From: Rhodoplanes sp.
GTDB taxonomy: Bacteria > Pseudomonadota > Alphaproteobacteria > Rhizobiales > Xanthobacteraceae
Direction: 5' to 3'
Assembly (NCBI RefSeq): GCF_013377085.1
Contig: NZ_JACAAX010000057.1
Span: 1-36,623 of the forward strand
DNA length: 36,623 nucleotides
In this document: positions 2,906 to 16,981 of the stretch, one piece after another
How the letters are laid out: the number at the start of each line of letters is the position of its first letter
How positions within the stretch are numbered: position 1 is the stretch's first letter
Notes under the pieces: generated by a model
The model's database searches: none
Seen by the model: only the letters and a program-made list of their open reading frames with translations
Told to the model about the DNA's origin: nothing
Translations under genes and position numbers: made by a program

Positions 2906-3036
2906 GGTGGAATCGGGGCGTGATCAGCGATCCTTGTCCCGACTTTCGACGGAGCACGGTAAAGAAGCGGTTAAGCGGGGCTAATCGAGGCGCGATTTAG
3001 GGTCGGTGCGGCATTGCCGCCATGGGAATTCGGACA

Positions 3037-3441
3037 ATGAGCGATCTTTCCCGTCTGATCGTCGGGCTCAAGGGACGCGCTGCCCTGGTGGTCGGCGCCG
3101 AGCACACCGCGGCGCGGGTCGGCAGCGGCGGCGTCGCGTCGCTCGCCACCCCCGTGATGGTCACCCTGATGGAAGCGGCCGCCGTCGACGCGATCGCCGG
3201 CGTGCTGCCGGAGGACCGGCAGAGCGTCGGGGTCCGGCTCCTGGTCGAGCACCACGCCGCCACCCCGGTCGGCATGCGGGTGGAGGCGGAGGCGGAGCTC
3301 GTCGCGGTGGACGGCCGCACCCTGACGTTCCGGGTGACGGCCCGCGACGCCGTCGAGCCGGTGGGCGACGGCACCCATGTCCGCGCCGTGATCGAGACCG
3401 CCCGCTTCGACCAGCGCCTGCAGTCGAAGGCGGCGGGCTGA
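3037..3441 (+). CDS. FlK-like hotdog thioesterase
   Basis: This 134-residue protein fits the hotdog-fold thioesterase group that includes fluoroacetyl-CoA thioesterase FlK. The residues expected for an FlK-type active site are present in order: Thr38 in the LATP segment, Glu46 in LMEAAA, and His72/His73 in VEHH. The surrounding Gly-rich VGSGGVASLATP segment also fits. The likely activity is hydrolysis of a small acyl-CoA in the cytoplasm; the natural substrate cannot be read from the sequence, and most relatives are not specific for fluoroacetyl-CoA. An in-frame ATG at 3022 would add five residues. I prefer 3037 because MSDLSRLI matches the usual start of the family. Neither start has a strong ribosome-binding site. 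Confidence 0.8.
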   Translation: MSDLSRLIVGLKGRAALVVGAEHTAARVGSGGVASLATPVMVTLMEAAAVDAIAGVLPEDRQSVGVRLLVEHHAATPVGMRVEAEAELVAVDGRTLTFRVTARDAVEPVGDGTHVRAVIETARFDQRLQSKAAG

Positions 3442-3505
3442 ATTTCAATCGACCGTTGCAGCCGCCGATCCTCCACGGTTTGACAACTGTAAATTGACGA
3501 TTGAC

Positions 3506-3525
3506 TCGATCGAAAGGACGATCGA
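3506..3525 (+). promoter_or_regulatory. Inverted repeat enclosing the higB ribosome-binding site
   Basis: TCGATCG at 3506-3512 and CGATCGA at 3519-3525 are perfect inverted repeats. The six-base space between them, AAAGGA, is the likely Shine-Dalgarno sequence, and the right arm includes the first base of the higB ATG. A TTGACA hexamer lies upstream at 3480-3485. The element could be a HigA operator or an RNA hairpin that exposes or hides the ribosome-binding site; both are inferences. Confidence 0.45.
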
Positions 3526-3803
3526 TGATCGAGAGCTTTCGGCACAAGGGACTGAAGCGGCTTTTCGAGGACGGCGATCCGAGAGGCGTGAACGCGCAGC
3601 ATGTCGACAAGATCGAGATGATCCTCGGCCTGCTCGATGTCGCGCTGACGGTCGAAGACCTGAACCTTCCGAGCTTCCGGCTTCACCGCCTGACCGGCGA
3701 TCTGAAGGGGCTCTGGTCCGTCACAGTCCGAGCCAATTGGCGGATTGTTTTTCGCTTCGACGATGGCCGCGCCTTCGATGTCGATCTCGTCGACTACCAC
3801 TGA
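3525..3803 (+). CDS. higB: HigB-type toxin of a toxin-antitoxin pair
   Basis: The 92-residue protein has the RelE/HigB layout: a basic N-terminus (MIESFRHKGLKRLFEDGD), the central segment LPSFRLHRLTGDLKG, then WSVTVRANWRIVFRF and a short acidic end, VDLVDYH. Toxins of this family are ribosome-dependent mRNA endonucleases that slow translation when the antitoxin is degraded. The gene lies 12 bases before a HigA-like antitoxin gene, and toxin-first order is typical of HigBA. The ATG at 3525 is chosen because AAAGGA precedes it by six bases; an in-frame alternative start at 3501 would lie upstream of that site. Family assignment is firm; activity is inferred. Confidence 0.88.
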   Translation: MIESFRHKGLKRLFEDGDPRGVNAQHVDKIEMILGLLDVALTVEDLNLPSFRLHRLTGDLKGLWSVTVRANWRIVFRFDDGRAFDVDLVDYH

Positions 3804-3815
3804 AGCAGAACGACC

Positions 3816-4103
3816 ATGCCGATGAAAAATCCCCCGCATCCGGGGCGACTGGTGAAGGATCAGATCGAGACCCTCGGGCTTTCGGTGGCCGAGGCCGCAG
3901 CCGGCCTCGGGGTCACGCGCCAACAGCTCTACAAGGTGATCAACGGCGAGAGCGCTGTGTCTCCGGAGATGGCCGTCCGCCTCGAGCAAGCGATCGGCAG
4001 CAGCGCCGAGGCTTGGCTGCGCCTGCAGGCGGCGCACGATCTCGCTCGCGTACGGCAGCAGGGCACGATCACGATCAAGCGATTGGAGGCAGCGCCCGGG
4101 TGA
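3816..4103 (+). CDS. higA: HigA-type antitoxin, XRE-family DNA-binding protein
   Basis: The protein has 95 residues and begins with the PPHPGRLVKDQIETLGLS signature of HigA antitoxins. A helix-turn-helix of the XRE/Cro type follows at about residues 23-52 (SVAEAAAGLGVTRQQLYKVI), then SPEMAVRLEQAIGSSAEAWL, also typical of the family. HigA binds and neutralises HigB, and the complex normally represses its own operon. The inverted repeat across the higB start is the obvious candidate target. A second in-frame ATG at 3822 would shorten the protein by two residues. The pair lies between unrelated metabolic genes, as addiction modules often do. Confidence 0.9.
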   Translation: MPMKNPPHPGRLVKDQIETLGLSVAEAAAGLGVTRQQLYKVINGESAVSPEMAVRLEQAIGSSAEAWLRLQAAHDLARVRQQGTITIKRLEAAPG

Positions 4104-4216
4104 GGCTGCCCCACGCCCGTGGCGAACCGCTGCGGCGGCCGCTAACATGAGCCGGCCCCCTCGCCGGGCCGCCAAGAGCCCGGGCGCCTTCGCCGCAGGG
4201 GCGGCGGGAGCAGCGG

Positions 4217-5413
4217 ATGCCGGACGCTTTCGTCTACGATCATGTCCGCACCCCGAGCGGCCGCGGCGCGCCGGACGGGACGCTGCGAAGCGTGACCGTG
4301 CTGGCGCTCGCCGCGACCGTGCTGGCCGAGCTCAAGGCGCGCAACCGGCTCGACCCCGGCTTCGTCGACGACATCGTGCTCGGCTGCGTCGATCCTGTCG
4401 GCGAGTGCGCCGCCGGCCTGGTCCGCGCCGCCGCGATCGCGGCCGGCCTCGCCGCCGTGCCGGGGCTGCTGCTCGACCGCTTCGGCGCCTCGGGGCTCGA
4501 TGCCGTGAACCTGGCGGCCGCCGCCGTGATGGCCGGCCAGCACGACATGGCGATGGCCGGCGGGGTCGGCTCGGCGAGCCGCAGCGTTCCAGTGCAGGGC
4601 GCGCTCGCCGTCGATCCGTCCGTCGCGCTCGCCGCCTTTCATGTTCCGCCCGGCATCGCCGCCGACCTGATCGCGACGCGTGCCGGCCTGTCGCGCAGCC
4701 GGCTCGACGCCTTCGCGGTGGAGAGCCACGTCCGCGCCACGGCGGCCTGGGCCGACGGCCGCTTCCGCCAGGCGGTCGCGCCGGTGCGCGACGTCAACGG
4801 CATCACGCTCTTGACCCGCGACGAGACCGTGCAGGCGGACGCTGCGCTCGACACGCTCGCGGCGGCGCCGCCGTCCTTCGCGGCGCTCGGCGAGGCCGGC
4901 TTCGACGCGGTGGCGATCCAGGCCCATCCGGAGGTCGAGGCAGTCGCGCATATGCATCACGCCGGCAACAGCGCCACTGCCGCCGACGGCGCCGGTGCCG
5001 TGCTGATCGGCAACCGCCGGATCGGCCGCCGTTCGGATCTGCGCCCGCGCGCAAGGATGCGCGCCTTCGCGACCGTGGCGACGGAGCCGCGCCCCGGCCT
5101 CGACGGCACGGCCGAGGCCATCCGCAAGGCGCTGCGCCGGGCGCGGCTGATCATCGCCGACATCGACGTGATCGAGATCGACGAGGTTTTCGCCGGGCCT
5201 ACGATCGAGACGATCCGCACGCTCGGCCCCGACCCCATGCGGGTCAATCCCAATGGCGGCGCCATCGCGCTCGGCCGGCCGCTCGGCGCCGTCGGCGCCA
5301 TCATGCTAGGTCGCGCCCTCGACGAGCTCGAGCGCCGCGACCGGACGCTCGCCTTGATCGCCGCCACGGCGGCCGCCGGTATGGCGACCGCCGCCATCAT
5401 CGAGCGGGTATGA
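4217..5413 (+). CDS. Thiolase-fold protein lacking all catalytic residues
   Basis: The 398-residue length and overall sequence match acetyl-CoA acetyltransferases of the FadA type. Conserved landmarks are RFGASGLDAVNLAA near residue 88, HHAGNSA near 247, NPNGGAIALGRPLGAVG near 344 and an IIERV ending. The residues that do the chemistry are changed. The nucleophile Cys of the usual RFCASGL is Gly90. The Asn of NEAF is Asp322. The His of GHPLG is Arg354. The second active-site Cys near the C-terminus is Thr384. The frame is intact and no frameshift is needed to align either end. Claisen condensation or thiolysis is therefore not expected; acyl-CoA binding, a scaffold role or early decay remain possible. 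The start has GGGAG seven bases upstream. The gene leads a same-strand cluster that includes a partly eroded beta-oxidation fusion. Confidence 0.88.
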   Translation: MPDAFVYDHVRTPSGRGAPDGTLRSVTVLALAATVLAELKARNRLDPGFVDDIVLGCVDPVGECAAGLVRAAAIAAGLAAVPGLLLDRFGASGLDAVNLAAAAVMAGQHDMAMAGGVGSASRSVPVQGALAVDPSVALAAFHVPPGIAADLIATRAGLSRSRLDAFAVESHVRATAAWADGRFRQAVAPVRDVNGITLLTRDETVQADAALDTLAAAPPSFAALGEAGFDAVAIQAHPEVEAVAHMHHAGNSATAADGAGAVLIGNRRIGRRSDLRPRARMRAFATVATEPRPGLDGTAEAIRKALRRARLIIADIDVIEIDEVFAGPTIETIRTLGPDPMRVNPNGGAIALGRPLGAVGAIMLGRALDELERRDRTLALIAATAAAGMATAAIIERV

Positions 5414-5454
5414 GCCCGCGACCCCCGCCAGCATCAGCAGGAGACCAACGCCCC

Positions 5455-5913
5455 ATGCCGAAGATCGACATCGATGCCATCCCGCTCGACACCGCCACGG
5501 GCTATCCGGAGCCCTTCCGGGCCGCCGTCGCGGGGCGTGCGCGAAAACGGATCGGGCGAGCCGCCGGCCTCGGCCAGTTCGGCGTCAACATCTGCCGGCT
5601 GGCGCCGGGCGCGGCGTCCTCGCAACGCCATTGGCATTTAGCCGAGGACGAGCTCGTCTTCGTGCTCGAAGGCGAGGTTGTGCTGTGCGAGGACGACGGC
5701 GAGACGGTGCTGCGGCCGGGTGACGCCGCCGCCTGGAAGGCCGGCGCCGAGAACGGCCACTGCCTGGTCAACCGCTCGGACCGCGACGCCGTGTTTCTCG
5801 AGGTCGGCAGCCGCGCCGGCGCCGACAGCGTGCGCTATCCGGACGCCGACCTGCGCGCCGAGCGCGACGCGACCGGCGCACGCTATCTGCACCGCTCCGG
5901 CGAGCCCTGGTGA
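5455..5913 (+). CDS. Cupin-domain protein
   Basis: This 152-residue protein has a single cupin beta-barrel. Motif 1 includes HWHLAEDELVFVLEGE, with His, His and Glu in metal-ligand positions. Motif 2 includes LRPGDAAAWKAG followed by GHCLVN, which supplies a further His. The fold and metal site therefore look intact. Cupins of this size include sugar-binding proteins, dioxygenases and small-molecule isomerases, and the sequence does not decide among them. AGGAG lies 11 bases before the ATG. The stop codon overlaps the start of the following hydratase/dehydrogenase gene by four bases (GTGA), which points to translational coupling and a shared pathway. Confidence 0.83.
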   Translation: MPKIDIDAIPLDTATGYPEPFRAAVAGRARKRIGRAAGLGQFGVNICRLAPGAASSQRHWHLAEDELVFVLEGEVVLCEDDGETVLRPGDAAAWKAGAENGHCLVNRSDRDAVFLEVGSRAGADSVRYPDADLRAERDATGARYLHRSGEPW

Positions 5914-7925
5914 ACCCGGCGGACCACGCCATGGCGGAGCGCAGCTTCACGGTCGCGATCGATCCCGACGGCATCGCGGTGGTGACCTGGGACATGCCCG
6001 GGCGCTCGATGAACGTCATCGACTTCGACGTCATCGACGAGCTCTCCGCCATCCTGGTCCGTGTGACGGCCGACCCCGCGGTGCGCGGCACCGTGCTGTG
6101 CTCCGGCAAGGAGACGTTCTGCGCCGGCGGCGACCTGGTGATGGTCGAGGCCTTCGGGCGCGGCCTCGACGCGTTGGTGCTGCGCGAGGGCGCCGAGGCG
6201 GCGGCCCGCCGCGTGCTCGCGGACGGTCGCAGGCTGTCGGGGCTGGCGCGCCGGATCGAGACCTCGGGCAAGCCGTGGGTCGTGGCGATCGACGGCACCG
6301 CGCTCGGCGGCGGCTTCGAGCTGTCGCTCGGCTGCCATCGCCGCATCGCCGCCGATCACACCCGCACCCGCGTCGGCGTGCCGGAGGTGCGGATCGGCCT
6401 GTTCCCGGGCGCCGGCGGCACCCAGCGCATCGCCCGCCTGACGCCGCTCGCCGACGCGCTCGCCCTGATGCTGTCGGGCGACCACATCGGGATCGAGCGG
6501 GCGCGCGCGCTGCGGCTGATCGACGACATCGTGCCGCCGAGCGATCTGATCACGTCCGCCAAGGCGTGGATTCTGTCGGGCGGCAGCGCCGTGGCGCCGT
6601 GGGACCGGCCCGGCTTTCGTCCGCCCGGCGAGCCGTTGTGGTCGAGCGCCGGCAGCGCCGCCTTCGCGGCCGAGGTGGCGCGCTGCCGCCGCGACACCGC
6701 GAACAACTATCCGGCGGCGCGCGCCATCCTGCAGGCCGTCTACGAGGGCCTGCAGCTCCCCATGGACCTCGCCCTCGACGTCGAGGCGCGGCTGTTCGCG
6801 GCGGTGCTGCGGACGCCCGAGGCTGTCGCGCTGATGAGCGTCCGCTTCGTCTCGGTGCAGGAGCTGAACAAGGGCGCACGGCGGCCGCCCGGCGTGCCGC
6901 ACCGGGCGATGCGCACGATCGGCGTGGTCGGCGCAGACTGCACGGGCGCCGGCATCGCGCAGGCGGCCGTGCAGGCCGGCCTCGACGTGGTGCCAATCGA
7001 CACCGGCCGCGAGGGCGACGATGCCGCGGCCGGATGGGAACGGCTCGCCGGCTGCGACCTGGTCGTCGCGGCGGTCGGCCAGGATCGCCGCGCGGCGGCC
7101 GCCCTGCTGACCCGCATCGACGCCGCGGCCGGCCCGGACACGATGCTGGCCCTCACCTGTTCGACGCTGGCGATCGACGAGCTGGCGACCGGCTGCCGGG
7201 AGCCGGCCCGCGTCCTCGGGCTGCATGTCGGTCCGGCGGAGGACACGCCGCTGGTCGAGATCGTCGCCGGCCTGAAAACCGGCGCGACTGCGCTCGCCGC
7301 CGCCTTCGACCTGGTGCGGGCGCTACGCAAGACGCCGATCATGGTCGCCGGCGCGCCCTACACGCCGCGGCTCGCGATGCGCTATCTCGGCGAAGGCCGC
7401 CAGTTGCTGGCCGAAGGGGTGCCCAAAGCCGTGATCGAGACGGCGGCGCGTTGCGCCGGCATGGCGGTCGGCCCGCTGGCGCTCGCCGAGCGGCTTGGGC
7501 CGACCGGCGCGGTGGGGAGCGAGCCGGCCGGCGGCGGCCGGCCGGCCCCGCGACGATCCTGGCACCGGCCGGGGCCCGCCGACATCACCGAGATCGCGCA
7601 GCGGCTTCTCGCCGTTCAGGTGCTGGAGGCGGTGCGCTGCGTCGAGGAGGGGGTCGTCACGGACGTGCGGGAGGCCGACGTCGCTGCCGTGCTCGGGCTC
7701 GGCTTTCCGTCGTTCACGGGCGGTCCGCTGAGCTGGATCGACCACATGGGCACGGCCGCCTTCGCGGCCCTGTGCCGGCGGCTCGCAGCCAAGGACGGCC
7801 CGCGCTTCGCGCCGGGTGCGCTCCTCACCGAGATGGCGGCGGGCGACGACCGCTTCTATCACCGCTTCGCCCCGCCCCGCTTCCGTAGGACCGCGGCGCA
7901 GGGCGCCCTGCGCGCGGGCGCGTGA
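5910..7925 (+). CDS. FadJ-like enoyl-CoA hydratase/hydroxyacyl-CoA dehydrogenase fusion, dehydrogenase half eroded
   Basis: From the GTG at 5910 the protein has 671 residues; the ATG at 5931 is an alternative. Residues 10-310 are a crotonase domain that keeps both catalytic glutamates, Glu137 in ALGGGFE and Glu159 in VGVPEVRIG, so hydratase activity is plausible. The linker QELNKGARRP at about 317-326 is typical of FadJ relatives. The dehydrogenase half is altered. The NAD loop usually reading GAGxMGAGI is GADCTGAGI at 341-349. The segment after it is about 40 residues shorter than in relatives I recall. The HFFxP motif is LHVGPA, although His439 and Glu450 remain. The usual Arg-Gly-Phe segment is missing after 480. 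Residues 529-558 are a Pro/Gly/Arg-rich stretch in place of a longer conserved region. The C-terminal FadB/FadJ helical region (560-655) is well kept. The protein is probably a hydratase with a weak or inactive dehydrogenase. Confidence 0.83.
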   Translation: MNPADHAMAERSFTVAIDPDGIAVVTWDMPGRSMNVIDFDVIDELSAILVRVTADPAVRGTVLCSGKETFCAGGDLVMVEAFGRGLDALVLREGAEAAARRVLADGRRLSGLARRIETSGKPWVVAIDGTALGGGFELSLGCHRRIAADHTRTRVGVPEVRIGLFPGAGGTQRIARLTPLADALALMLSGDHIGIERARALRLIDDIVPPSDLITSAKAWILSGGSAVAPWDRPGFRPPGEPLWSSAGSAAFAAEVARCRRDTANNYPAARAILQAVYEGLQLPMDLALDVEARLFAAVLRTPEAVALMSVRFVSVQELNKGARRPPGVPHRAMRTIGVVGADCTGAGIAQAAVQAGLDVVPIDTGREGDDAAAGWERLAGCDLVVAAVGQDRRAAAALLTRIDAAAGPDTMLALTCSTLAIDELATGCREPARVLGLHVGPAEDTPLVEIVAGLKTGATALAAAFDLVRALRKTPIMVAGAPYTPRLAMRYLGEGRQLLAEGVPKAVIETAARCAGMAVGPLALAERLGPTGAVGSEPAGGGRPAPRRSWHRPGPADITEIAQRLLAVQVLEAVRCVEEGVVTDVREADVAAVLGLGFPSFTGGPLSWIDHMGTAAFAALCRRLAAKDGPRFAPGALLTEMAAGDDRFYHRFAPPRFRRTAAQGALRAGA

Positions 7926-8044
7926 GTTCTCCGTGCGGCGCTTGCGCTCGCTCCCCGCAGCCGTCAAGATCACGGTTCGAACAACAAGAATTCGTTCACG
8001 TCGGGACGGAAGCAACCCATTGTCGCCCGGGAGGGAGCCCCCGT

Positions 8045-13566: not shown

Positions 13567-13602
13567 CCTGTGTCTCTCCCGCCGAAGTAAGTATGCACCG
13601 AG

Positions 13603-13682
13603 CCGCTCGTCCCCGCGAAAGCGGGGGACCCAGGAGCCCCGCAAAGAAAGACGTGGATTCCCGCTTGCACGGGAATGAGCGG
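13603..13682. repeat. Palindromic intergenic repeat (two-hairpin type)
   Basis: CCGCTC at 13603-13608 pairs with GAGCGG at 13677-13682. Inside are two hairpins, GTCCCCGCGAAAGCGGGGGAC and TTCCCGCTTGCACGGGAA. The pattern matches a repeat that I recall as common between genes in Bradyrhizobium-like genomes. It lies between two converging genes and could also help end transcription. Confidence 0.6.
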
Positions 13683-13720
13683 AGTATGGATCGATATCGG
13701 CGAAAATTGCGGGCGCGGGT

Positions 13721-15297: not shown

Positions 15298-16386
15298 TCA
15301 GTCCTGAAACACCCGGTTGACATGGCCCATCTTGCGGCCGGGGCGGACCACCGGCTTGCCGTAGAGGTGCACCGCGGCGCCGGGGACCGCGAGCCAGGCC
15401 TTGTGGTCGTCGACCTCGGCGCCGATCAGGTTGAGCATCTCGGACCGGCCGTGGCGGACCGGCACGGCGAGCGGCCAACCTGCCACCGCGCGGATATGCT
15501 GCTCGAACTGCGACACCGAGCAGCCGTCGAGCGTCCAGTGGCCGGAATTGTGCACGCGGGGCGCGATCTCGTTGACCAGCACCCGCCCGCCGCCCTCCGC
15601 GACCCAGAACATCTCGACGGCGAGGACGCCGACATAGCCGAACGCCTCGGCGATCCGGACCGCAATGTCGCGGGCCGTGGCCGCGACAACGTCGGGCACC
15701 GCCGCCGGCACCCGGGTGACTTTCAAGATGTGGTCGCGGTGCTGGTTCTCGCAGAGATCGAAACTCTGCACCGTGCCGTCGAGGCCGCGCGCCGCCACGA
15801 CGGAGATCTCGCGCTCGAACGGCACGAAGGCCTCGAGGATCGCCGGCTGCTCGCCGATCTCGGCCCAGGCGACCGCGGGATCGTCCCCCGGCCGAATCGT
15901 CACCTGGCCCTTGCCGTCGTAACCGAACCGCCGGGTTTTCAGGACCGCCGGGCGGCCCACGGCCGCCAGGGCGGTTTCCAGCCCAGCCAGGTCGTCGACC
16001 GCGGCGAAGGGCGCCGTCTCGATGCCGAGCGAGGTGACAAAAGTCTTCTCGGCGAGGCGGTCCTGGGTGGTGGCGAGGATTTTCGGATCGGGCAGCACCG
16101 GTTTTCTGGCCGACAGAAACGTCGCGGTCTCGGCCGGGACGTTCTCGAACTCGTACGTGACCACGTCGACATCGTTGGCGAAGCGGTCGAGCGCCTCCTT
16201 GTCGGTGTAGTCGGCCTCGGTCACCCGGCGCACCACGTCGAAGGCGCAGGACTGCGGGTCGGGGCACAGCACGTGGCACTTGAAGCCGAGCCGGGCGGCG
16301 GCGAGCGCCAGCATGCGACCGAGCTGTCCGGCCCCGAGAATCCCGATGGTGGCGTCCGGCCCCAGCGGACGCGGCGGAACGATCAC
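15298..16386 (-). CDS. purK: N5-carboxyaminoimidazole ribonucleotide synthase PurK
   Basis: The 362-residue protein is an ATP-grasp enzyme of purine synthesis. It converts AIR, ATP and bicarbonate to N5-CAIR in the cytoplasm. The N-terminal [16 protein letters not shown] loop, the ATP-grasp segments [12 protein letters not shown] and VEMFWV, and the C-terminal [14 protein letters not shown] with HLYGK are all PurK signatures. The GTG at 16386 is chosen because it overlaps the purE stop (GTGA), and the family starts at this point. The product is passed to PurE, encoded immediately upstream in the same operon. Confidence 0.95.
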
Positions 16387-16880
16387 GCGGAGGCCTCCTC
16401 GGTCGGCGCCTCGGCGACGGCCTCGGTCTGGCGGCGGCGCCAGTCCTCCAGCCGGCCGGCCAGCGCCGCATCGTCGAGCGCCAGGATGGAGGCGGCGAGC
16501 AGCGCCGCATTGATGGCGCCGGCGCGGCCGATGGCCAGCGTGCCGACCGGCACGCCGGGCGGCATCTGGACGATCGAGTAGAGCGAATCGACGCCGGACA
16601 ACGCCTTCGACTCCACCGGCACGCCCAGCACCGGCAGGATCGTCATGGCGGCCGTCATGCCGGGCAGATGGGCGGCCCCGCCCGCCCCGGCGATGATCAC
16701 CTTGAAGCCGGCGGCCCGCGCGCCCTTGGCGAACGCGTAAAGCCGATCCGGCGTGCGATGGGCCGAGACGATGCGCTTCACATGGCCGATGCCGAGCGCG
16801 TCGAGCGTCTCGGCGGCGTGCCGCATGGTGGCCCAGTCGGACTGGCTGCCCATGATGATGGCCACCGGAGTCGCGCTCAT
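16383..16880 (-). CDS. purE: N5-carboxyaminoimidazole ribonucleotide mutase PurE
   Basis: The 165-residue protein is a class I PurE that moves the carboxylate of N5-CAIR to make CAIR. The signatures [12 protein letters not shown] at the N-terminus, [10 protein letters not shown] near residue 40, [15 protein letters not shown] near residue 65 and the final AINAALLAA are all present. The ATG at 16880 begins [15 protein letters not shown], the normal start. The four-base overlap with purK indicates translational coupling. It is divergent from the diguanylate cyclase gene across about 100 bases. I saw no purine riboswitch in that spacer. Confidence 0.96.
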
Positions 16881-16981
16881 CTGAGTCTCTCGGTAACGGG
16901 GACGGCCGCATGCGCGGTCCGGAAGCGCGCGTTTTATAGGTACGGTCGTCCCCCTGGCAAGCAACGCGGCGCACTTCGGCG

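Follow-up and report, generated by a model that had tools for sequence, protein, structure and literature searches.

The window analyzed here, a stretch of 36,623 nucleotides from Rhodoplanes sp. (contig NZ_JACAAX010000057.1), carries a gene for a FadA-type thiolase, the β subunit of a trifunctional enzyme (TFE) of fatty-acid oxidation, in which all four catalytic residues are replaced. The gene for a FadB-like α subunit lies downstream of it, separated by a cupin gene, and, as judged from the sequence, two of the three TFE activities seem to be eroded in this pair while the enoyl-CoA hydratase is not. We favor, with a confidence that stops just short of an even chance, the reading in which the locus encodes a complex with hydratase activity only, the dead thiolase having been retained as an assembly partner. 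The thiolase and its replaced residues are located as follows.

4217–5413, forward strand: FadA-type thiolase β subunit, 398 amino acids, catalytic residues replaced (Pfam Thiolase_N and Thiolase_C; open reading frame)
4484–4486, forward strand: Gly90 (codon GGC) in the alignment column of the nucleophilic Cys of C-x-S
5180–5182, forward strand: Asp322 (codon GAC) in the column of the NEAF Asn, the motif reading DEVF
5276–5278, forward strand: Arg354 (codon CGG) in the column of the GHP His, the motif reading GRP
5366–5368, forward strand: Thr384 (codon ACG) in the column of the second Cys (C-x-G), the motif reading TAA

Both the N- and C-terminal halves of the thiolase superfamily are present. 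The closest relative with a solved structure is FadA (Rv0859) of MtTFE (E 3.6e-90), and kinship to the β subunit of the MtTFE-type complex is evident both from the sequence and from the fadA–cupin–fadB operon. The top NCBIfam match, NF006090 (an acetyl-CoA C-acetyltransferase equivalog, PRK08242), scores 457.9 bits, below its curated cut-off of 514. A search returned 98 FadA relatives, and after removal of rows shorter than 380 amino acids or identical to another, 81 distinct ones remained; all 81 read C/N/H/C in the four catalytic columns, where the window reads G/D/R/T, which confirms the preliminary description of a full-length thiolase replaced at every active-site position. A second sample comprised 25 loci in 20 genomes chosen among those with lower scores, some of which may overlap the first set; more distant second thiolases are included. 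Of these loci, 21, counted by eye, have all four canonical residues, and the other four, partial or masked, show no replacement at the sites covered. The M-L-T-G-P loop of the relatives, which we take to be the VMG fingerprint, is also replaced. All five thiolase fingerprint positions (C-x-S, VMG, NEAF, GHP, and C-x-G, as named in the available text of PMC3406046) are changed with respect to the relatives, and the earlier assertion that the loss exceeds one chance mutation stands. Thr384 would be at least two amino acid-changing steps away from a Cys codon. Overall, the thiolase retains 111 of its 154 near-invariant columns (at least 98.5% conserved), and its fold is predicted to be intact, with the active-site loops among its low-confidence parts.

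The partner FadB, absent from the preliminary description, alters the picture; the thiolase is not an isolated dead enzyme.

5910–7925, forward strand: FadB-like α subunit, 671 amino acids, its start overlapping the cupin stop, with an alternative ATG at 5931 (Pfam; relatives)
5910–6809, forward strand: enoyl-CoA hydratase (crotonase) domain, with Glu137 (6318–6320) and Glu159 (6384–6386) among the 49 of 51 near-invariant columns that it retains
6912–7922, forward strand: 3-hydroxyacyl-CoA dehydrogenase (HAD) part, eroded, 52 of 88 near-invariant columns kept

The same threshold of 98.5% was applied to columns drawn from 76 distinct FadB relatives, with the hydratase taken as residues 1–300 and the dehydrogenase as residues 335–671. 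Retention in the hydratase differs from that in the dehydrogenase (p = 8.5e-7) and from that in the thiolase (p = 1.4e-4). Both catalytic glutamates of the hydratase are Glu in all 76 relatives. In the dinucleotide-binding loop of the HAD part (GxGxxG), the second Gly, invariant in 76 of 76 relatives, is Asp343 (6936–6938); Glu387, the first Glu of I-E-A-V-F-E, is replaced by Ala (7068–7070), and Asn/Ser486 by Pro (7365–7367) at the position matching Mt Ser512, the Mt numbers having been counted by hand on an alignment with the structure of the MtTFE α chain. Positions 387 and 486 are counted, with His439, Glu450, and Ser418, as active-site residues of this domain, the two Glu on the basis of their presumed roles. 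A gap of 32 codons follows residue 371, and approximately 47 codons are missing over four gaps after residues 528–552; full-length relatives are mostly 734–751 amino acids long versus 671 in the window. In a leave-one-out comparison over columns conserved at 97%, the window keeps 72% of them in the thiolase and 72% in FadB, the next-lowest rows keeping 88% and 89%, with medians of 100% and 99%, respectively.

Compared with FadA of MtTFE (Rv0859; PDB 4b3h, 7o4r) and with alphaproteobacterial FadA, the window protein differs not only in the Cys, Asn, His, and second Cys, but also in the loop after SEP and in a stretch near residues 124–140, and it sits on a far longer branch. With FadB of MtTFE (4b3h) the window protein shares the hydratase-then-dehydrogenase order and both hydratase glutamates, although the NAD-loop Gly has become Asp, Glu387 and Asn/Ser486 are lost, and the chain is some 65–80 residues shorter than its relatives. 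Thiolase-fold proteins lacking thiolase residues are already known (MsTLP1, SLP/Sal/Ltp2), each being, in the parts of the sources available, a distinct conserved family. According to the accessible portion of PMC3406046, MsTLP1 has the thiolase fold with altered fingerprints and no thiolase activity, but it is only 15% identical to the Z. ramigera thiolase, is monomeric, has an extra C-terminal domain and the motifs YSCF, GGL, and NGG, and represents a conserved family rather than a recently dead TFE subunit; the window protein, with 398 residues, has no extra domain and carries DEVF instead of YSCF. The steroid aldolases Sal and Ltp2 and TbSLP likewise have a thiolase fold without canonical thiolase catalysis and stand beside a hydratase, but, as presented in the part of PMC12329534 at hand, they are SCP2-type proteins with a DUF35 partner and a YDxF/Y motif, none of which is seen in the window. 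BbsCD, as cited in the available text of PMC10818641, retains inactive pseudoenzyme subunits in a β-oxidation dehydrogenase, although that enzyme is a short-chain alcohol dehydrogenase of another fold. What is distinct here is the closeness to canonical TFE subunits (42–58% identity), the occurrence in one genome so far, and the erosion of the adjoining dehydrogenase site as well. No description of a TFE whose thiolase is dead was found in the literature searched, in which few subscription journals were covered.

In the reading that we favor, the ancestral protein would have been a vertically inherited thiolase β subunit of an MtTFE-type trifunctional enzyme. This lineage would have lost the active site of the thiolase and, in all likelihood, that of the dehydrogenase, and would have kept the enoyl-CoA hydratase site of the α subunit. 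The non-catalytic FadA would then serve as a core for α-chain assembly, holding together a hydratase-only FadB, and other dehydrogenases and thiolases encoded in the genome would have to complete the breakdown of the 3-hydroxyacyl-CoA product. Such an assembly core is plausible because a structure of MtTFE mutated at all three sites (7o1g), with α and β chains, has been solved, as its available entry indicates, and because, according to the portion of PMC11385086 at hand, a truncating variant in either trifunctional subunit lowers both subunits in human cells. Directly seen are the replaced residues, a loss that differs between domains, genes that stay open, and a predicted thiolase fold; we infer that the complex is made and assembles, that its hydratase is active, and that FadA is kept for this purpose.

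The 3.2 kb of fadA and fadB contain no stop or frameshift, and a single frame persists across all 10 alignment gaps (three in fadA and seven in fadB, of which some may be single events divided by the alignment program). Hidden pairs of compensating frameshifts were considered and rejected, as tblastn with one canonical FadA and one canonical FadB against 4151–8000 recovered each in a single uninterrupted frame; one further match was on the minus strand (27 amino acids, E 0.71), and there were no others. Neutral simulations in which invariant residues are replaced in the proportion lost here gave zero stops in 6, 11, and 48% of the runs for the thiolase and in 1, 4, and 22% for the HAD part at equilibrium GC of 0.5, 0.7, and 0.9, respectively; since the gene is so GC-rich, the lack of stops is by itself weak evidence against decay. 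In a codon model, ω on the window branch is 0.115 for the cupin, 0.054 for the hydratase, and 0.173 for the HAD part, the rise of the last over background being non-significant (2ΔlnL 2.7). For the thiolase the branch reached its upper bound, so that ω is unreadable and the model uninformative, as synonymous sites are saturated. A value of ω = 1 along the whole window branch fits worse for all four. This model comprises eight taxa, averages the time before and after the loss, and was run with an iteration-limited optimizer; the window row was placed in its tree by hand according to the cupin tree, the adjoining fork having a support of 41 in a free search.

The history of the locus in the genus was followed through the gene that separates fadA from fadB.

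5455–5913, forward strand: Cupin_2 protein, 152 amino acids, between fadA and fadB (Pfam; cupin tree; found in three genus mates, G001, G002, and G003)

The cupin is kept at three of the four genus-mate loci that could be judged, those of G001–G004. A thioesterase, the cupin, and a transporter protein stand in a row in G001, and G003 has the thioesterase and the cupin; G002 has the cupin and the transporter protein, with the thioesterase on a separate contig, and in G004 the thioesterase and the transporter protein are separated by 1.9 kb without a cupin match. In the cupin tree the window copy falls inside a genus clade with the three mates (support 100/98) on an ordinary branch (0.23 versus a median of 0.29), and because of this position the operon is most likely ancestral in the genus, its fadA and fadB having since disappeared from the mates. 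In an unrooted tree built from five genes common to these genomes, G001 pairs with G002 (100) and G003 with G005 (85), and the window genome, G000, lies among them; some of the genes are missing from G003 and G005, and one gene (15298–16974) is an unverified open reading frame. If the root lies near G003 and G005, fadA and fadB were lost at least twice.

Several observations weigh against a dead thiolase kept for assembly, some of them also speaking for decay caught midway, in which the enzyme is dispensable in the genus, its genes are drifting, and the sampled species has not yet deleted them. At E ≤ 1e-60, fadA has no match in any of the five genus mates (G005 being only 58% complete), and the eight stretches fetched from genus mates, in which G001, G002, and G003 keep the cupin, contain no FadA or FadB match at E < 0.05. 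The preliminary description had asked whether orthologues share the four substitutions; the genomes examined yielded no orthologue with the same replacements and nothing above 58% identity (the highest aligned FadA row), and Cys/Asn/His/Cys is retained in the relatives inspected. No closer FadA orthologue appeared among 391 family, 397 order, and 385 class genomes, sampled and sorted by score so that a dead orthologue too divergent to rank high could be missed; the best matches there are 54–56% identical, and the two best at the order level keep the canonical motifs. With no orthologue sharing the replacements, it is not demonstrated that selection maintains the dead form. The end branch of the window in the FadA tree amounts to 3.56 changes per column versus a median of 0.083, approximately 40 times as long, although the long row and its odd composition make this length rough and the placement unsure. 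The GC content at first and second codon positions (GC1/GC2) of the thiolase, 0.776/0.553, exceeds the canonical maxima of 0.767/0.525 (n = 95), as in relaxed genes, and together with the long branch indicates that constraint has been relaxed. GC2 of the HAD part is 0.585 versus a maximum of 0.576 (n = 77), with HAD GC1 and the hydratase below their maxima; the neighboring FlK and cupin genes are likewise GC-rich. The 43 lost near-invariant columns of the thiolase include many beyond the catalytic residues, the FadB linker is eroded (4 of 8 columns kept), and the predicted FadB-like structure is too poor to use (pLDDT 69, pTM 0.46). As the HAD part retains His439 (Mt His462), Glu450, and Ser418 (Mt Ser441), its death is probable but not proven.

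Since the genus tolerates the loss of fadA and fadB, decay ranks closely behind the favored reading and has a substantial, if lesser, chance of being correct; zero stops are also not rare for the thiolase in the neutral simulation. Against decay stands the uneven drift within fadB, slight in the hydratase but marked in the HAD part farther downstream. The simulation also requires approximately 175–185 substitutions in the thiolase and 287–307 in the HAD part; indels occur at roughly one per ten substitutions, so that dozens would be expected, yet no frameshift is seen. The earlier proposal of either a scaffold or a gene in decay named the right pair, and both survive. Canonical relatives combined with relaxed selection had been named as a sign of decay, a sign that is half present: selection is indeed relaxed, yet the open frame, the thiolase fold as predicted, and the operon's hydratase have been retained.

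It is improbable, and finds no support at the level of residues, that the thiolase pocket has been remodeled to act on the hydrated acyl-CoA, for example by retro-aldol cleavage, a hydratase plus a thiolase-fold lyase then standing in for hydration, oxidation, and thiolysis. A hydratase–aldolase route would leave just such a pattern, in which hydration remains and the sites for oxidation and thiolysis are gone, and the available part of PMC12329534 offers a precedent in the proteobacterial Sal and actinobacterial Ltp2 thiolase-fold aldolases, CtSal operating in a complex with its hydratase. However, the YDCY/YDHF motif is absent, D-E-V-F standing at the NEAF position that we take as equivalent; there is no new Tyr or Cys at the four sites and no DUF35 among the eight locus proteins scanned with Pfam. 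By hand count, Ala, Gly, Thr, or Arg now occupies 22 of the 43 invariant columns that were lost, and the active-site loops are modeled with low confidence. Also unlikely is a combined form, a hydratase-only machine on a dead thiolase core whose pocket may have gained a new carbon–carbon lyase, one that would make both oxidation and thiolysis unnecessary. Least probable of all is a non-catalytic acyl-CoA or CoA binder, with the thiolase acting as a carrier or substrate-channeling surface for the hydratase. Much of the sequence between FDAVAIQAHPEVEAV and HHAGNS is kept, and MtTFE has CoA-binding subsites at the α–β boundary, as described in the accessible part of PMC11301753. However, only HHAGNS and NGGAIA remain of the neighboring motifs that had been described as kept; the four conserved residues that come next after HHAGNS, S-G-I-V, are A-T-A-A here, the M-L-T-G-P loop is replaced, and the equivalent of Mt Gln149 is Pro145. 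The Ser that follows HHAGNS is presumably a pantetheine contact, and its replacement and that of the Gln149 equivalent weaken the earlier suggestion of an acyl-CoA binder.

Contamination or a mis-binned contig was considered and set aside, as the genus mates match the greater part of the 36.6-kb contig, to the left and right of the operon, at approximately 70–90% DNA identity; the window genome is rated 99.6% complete and 0.7% contaminated. No second working copy of the window FadA was seen in this genome, the next listed thiolase match having an E value of 2.5e-26, and its other PF00108 matches are other thiolase types. The same genome also encodes a thiolase-like protein (L153, G000:C36:21490–22116), possibly of the SCP2 type, with the first Cys kept, GEP in place of GHP, and no NEAF in a loose alignment.

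The fadA–cupin–fadB arrangement recurs in related alphaproteobacteria, with a cupin match at 24 and a FadB match at 83 of 86 loci, a set that includes the window copy and many loci with short flanks. The Cupin_2 gene is found in several related trifunctional-enzyme operons (also L046, L041, and L040) and outlasts them in genus mates. Directly upstream of fadA are a HigB-like toxin gene and the open reading frame that follows it (3501–4101), a place at which several relatives have an acyl-CoA dehydrogenase; the second frame is probably the antitoxin, since the same pair recurs in G002. A protein of the FlK type (fluoroacetyl-CoA thioesterase family) is encoded at 3022–3441 and adjoins the corresponding locus in G001–G004. 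Elsewhere in the window, approximately 100 bases at 13595–13710 form a dispersed repeat matching very many places in the genus genomes, and similar short repeats are present in its latter half.

Under either the assembly or the decay reading, an acetyltransferase annotation of 4217–5413 would be wrong. If the complex is made, it would be a natural separation-of-function TFE in which the structural role of the thiolase outlives catalysis, and it would mean that a substrate-channeling complex can be reduced to its first step. If the genes are instead decaying, the intact operon in the family, the eroded one here, and the sister genomes with the cupin only would form a graded series in the dismantling of a multienzyme complex.
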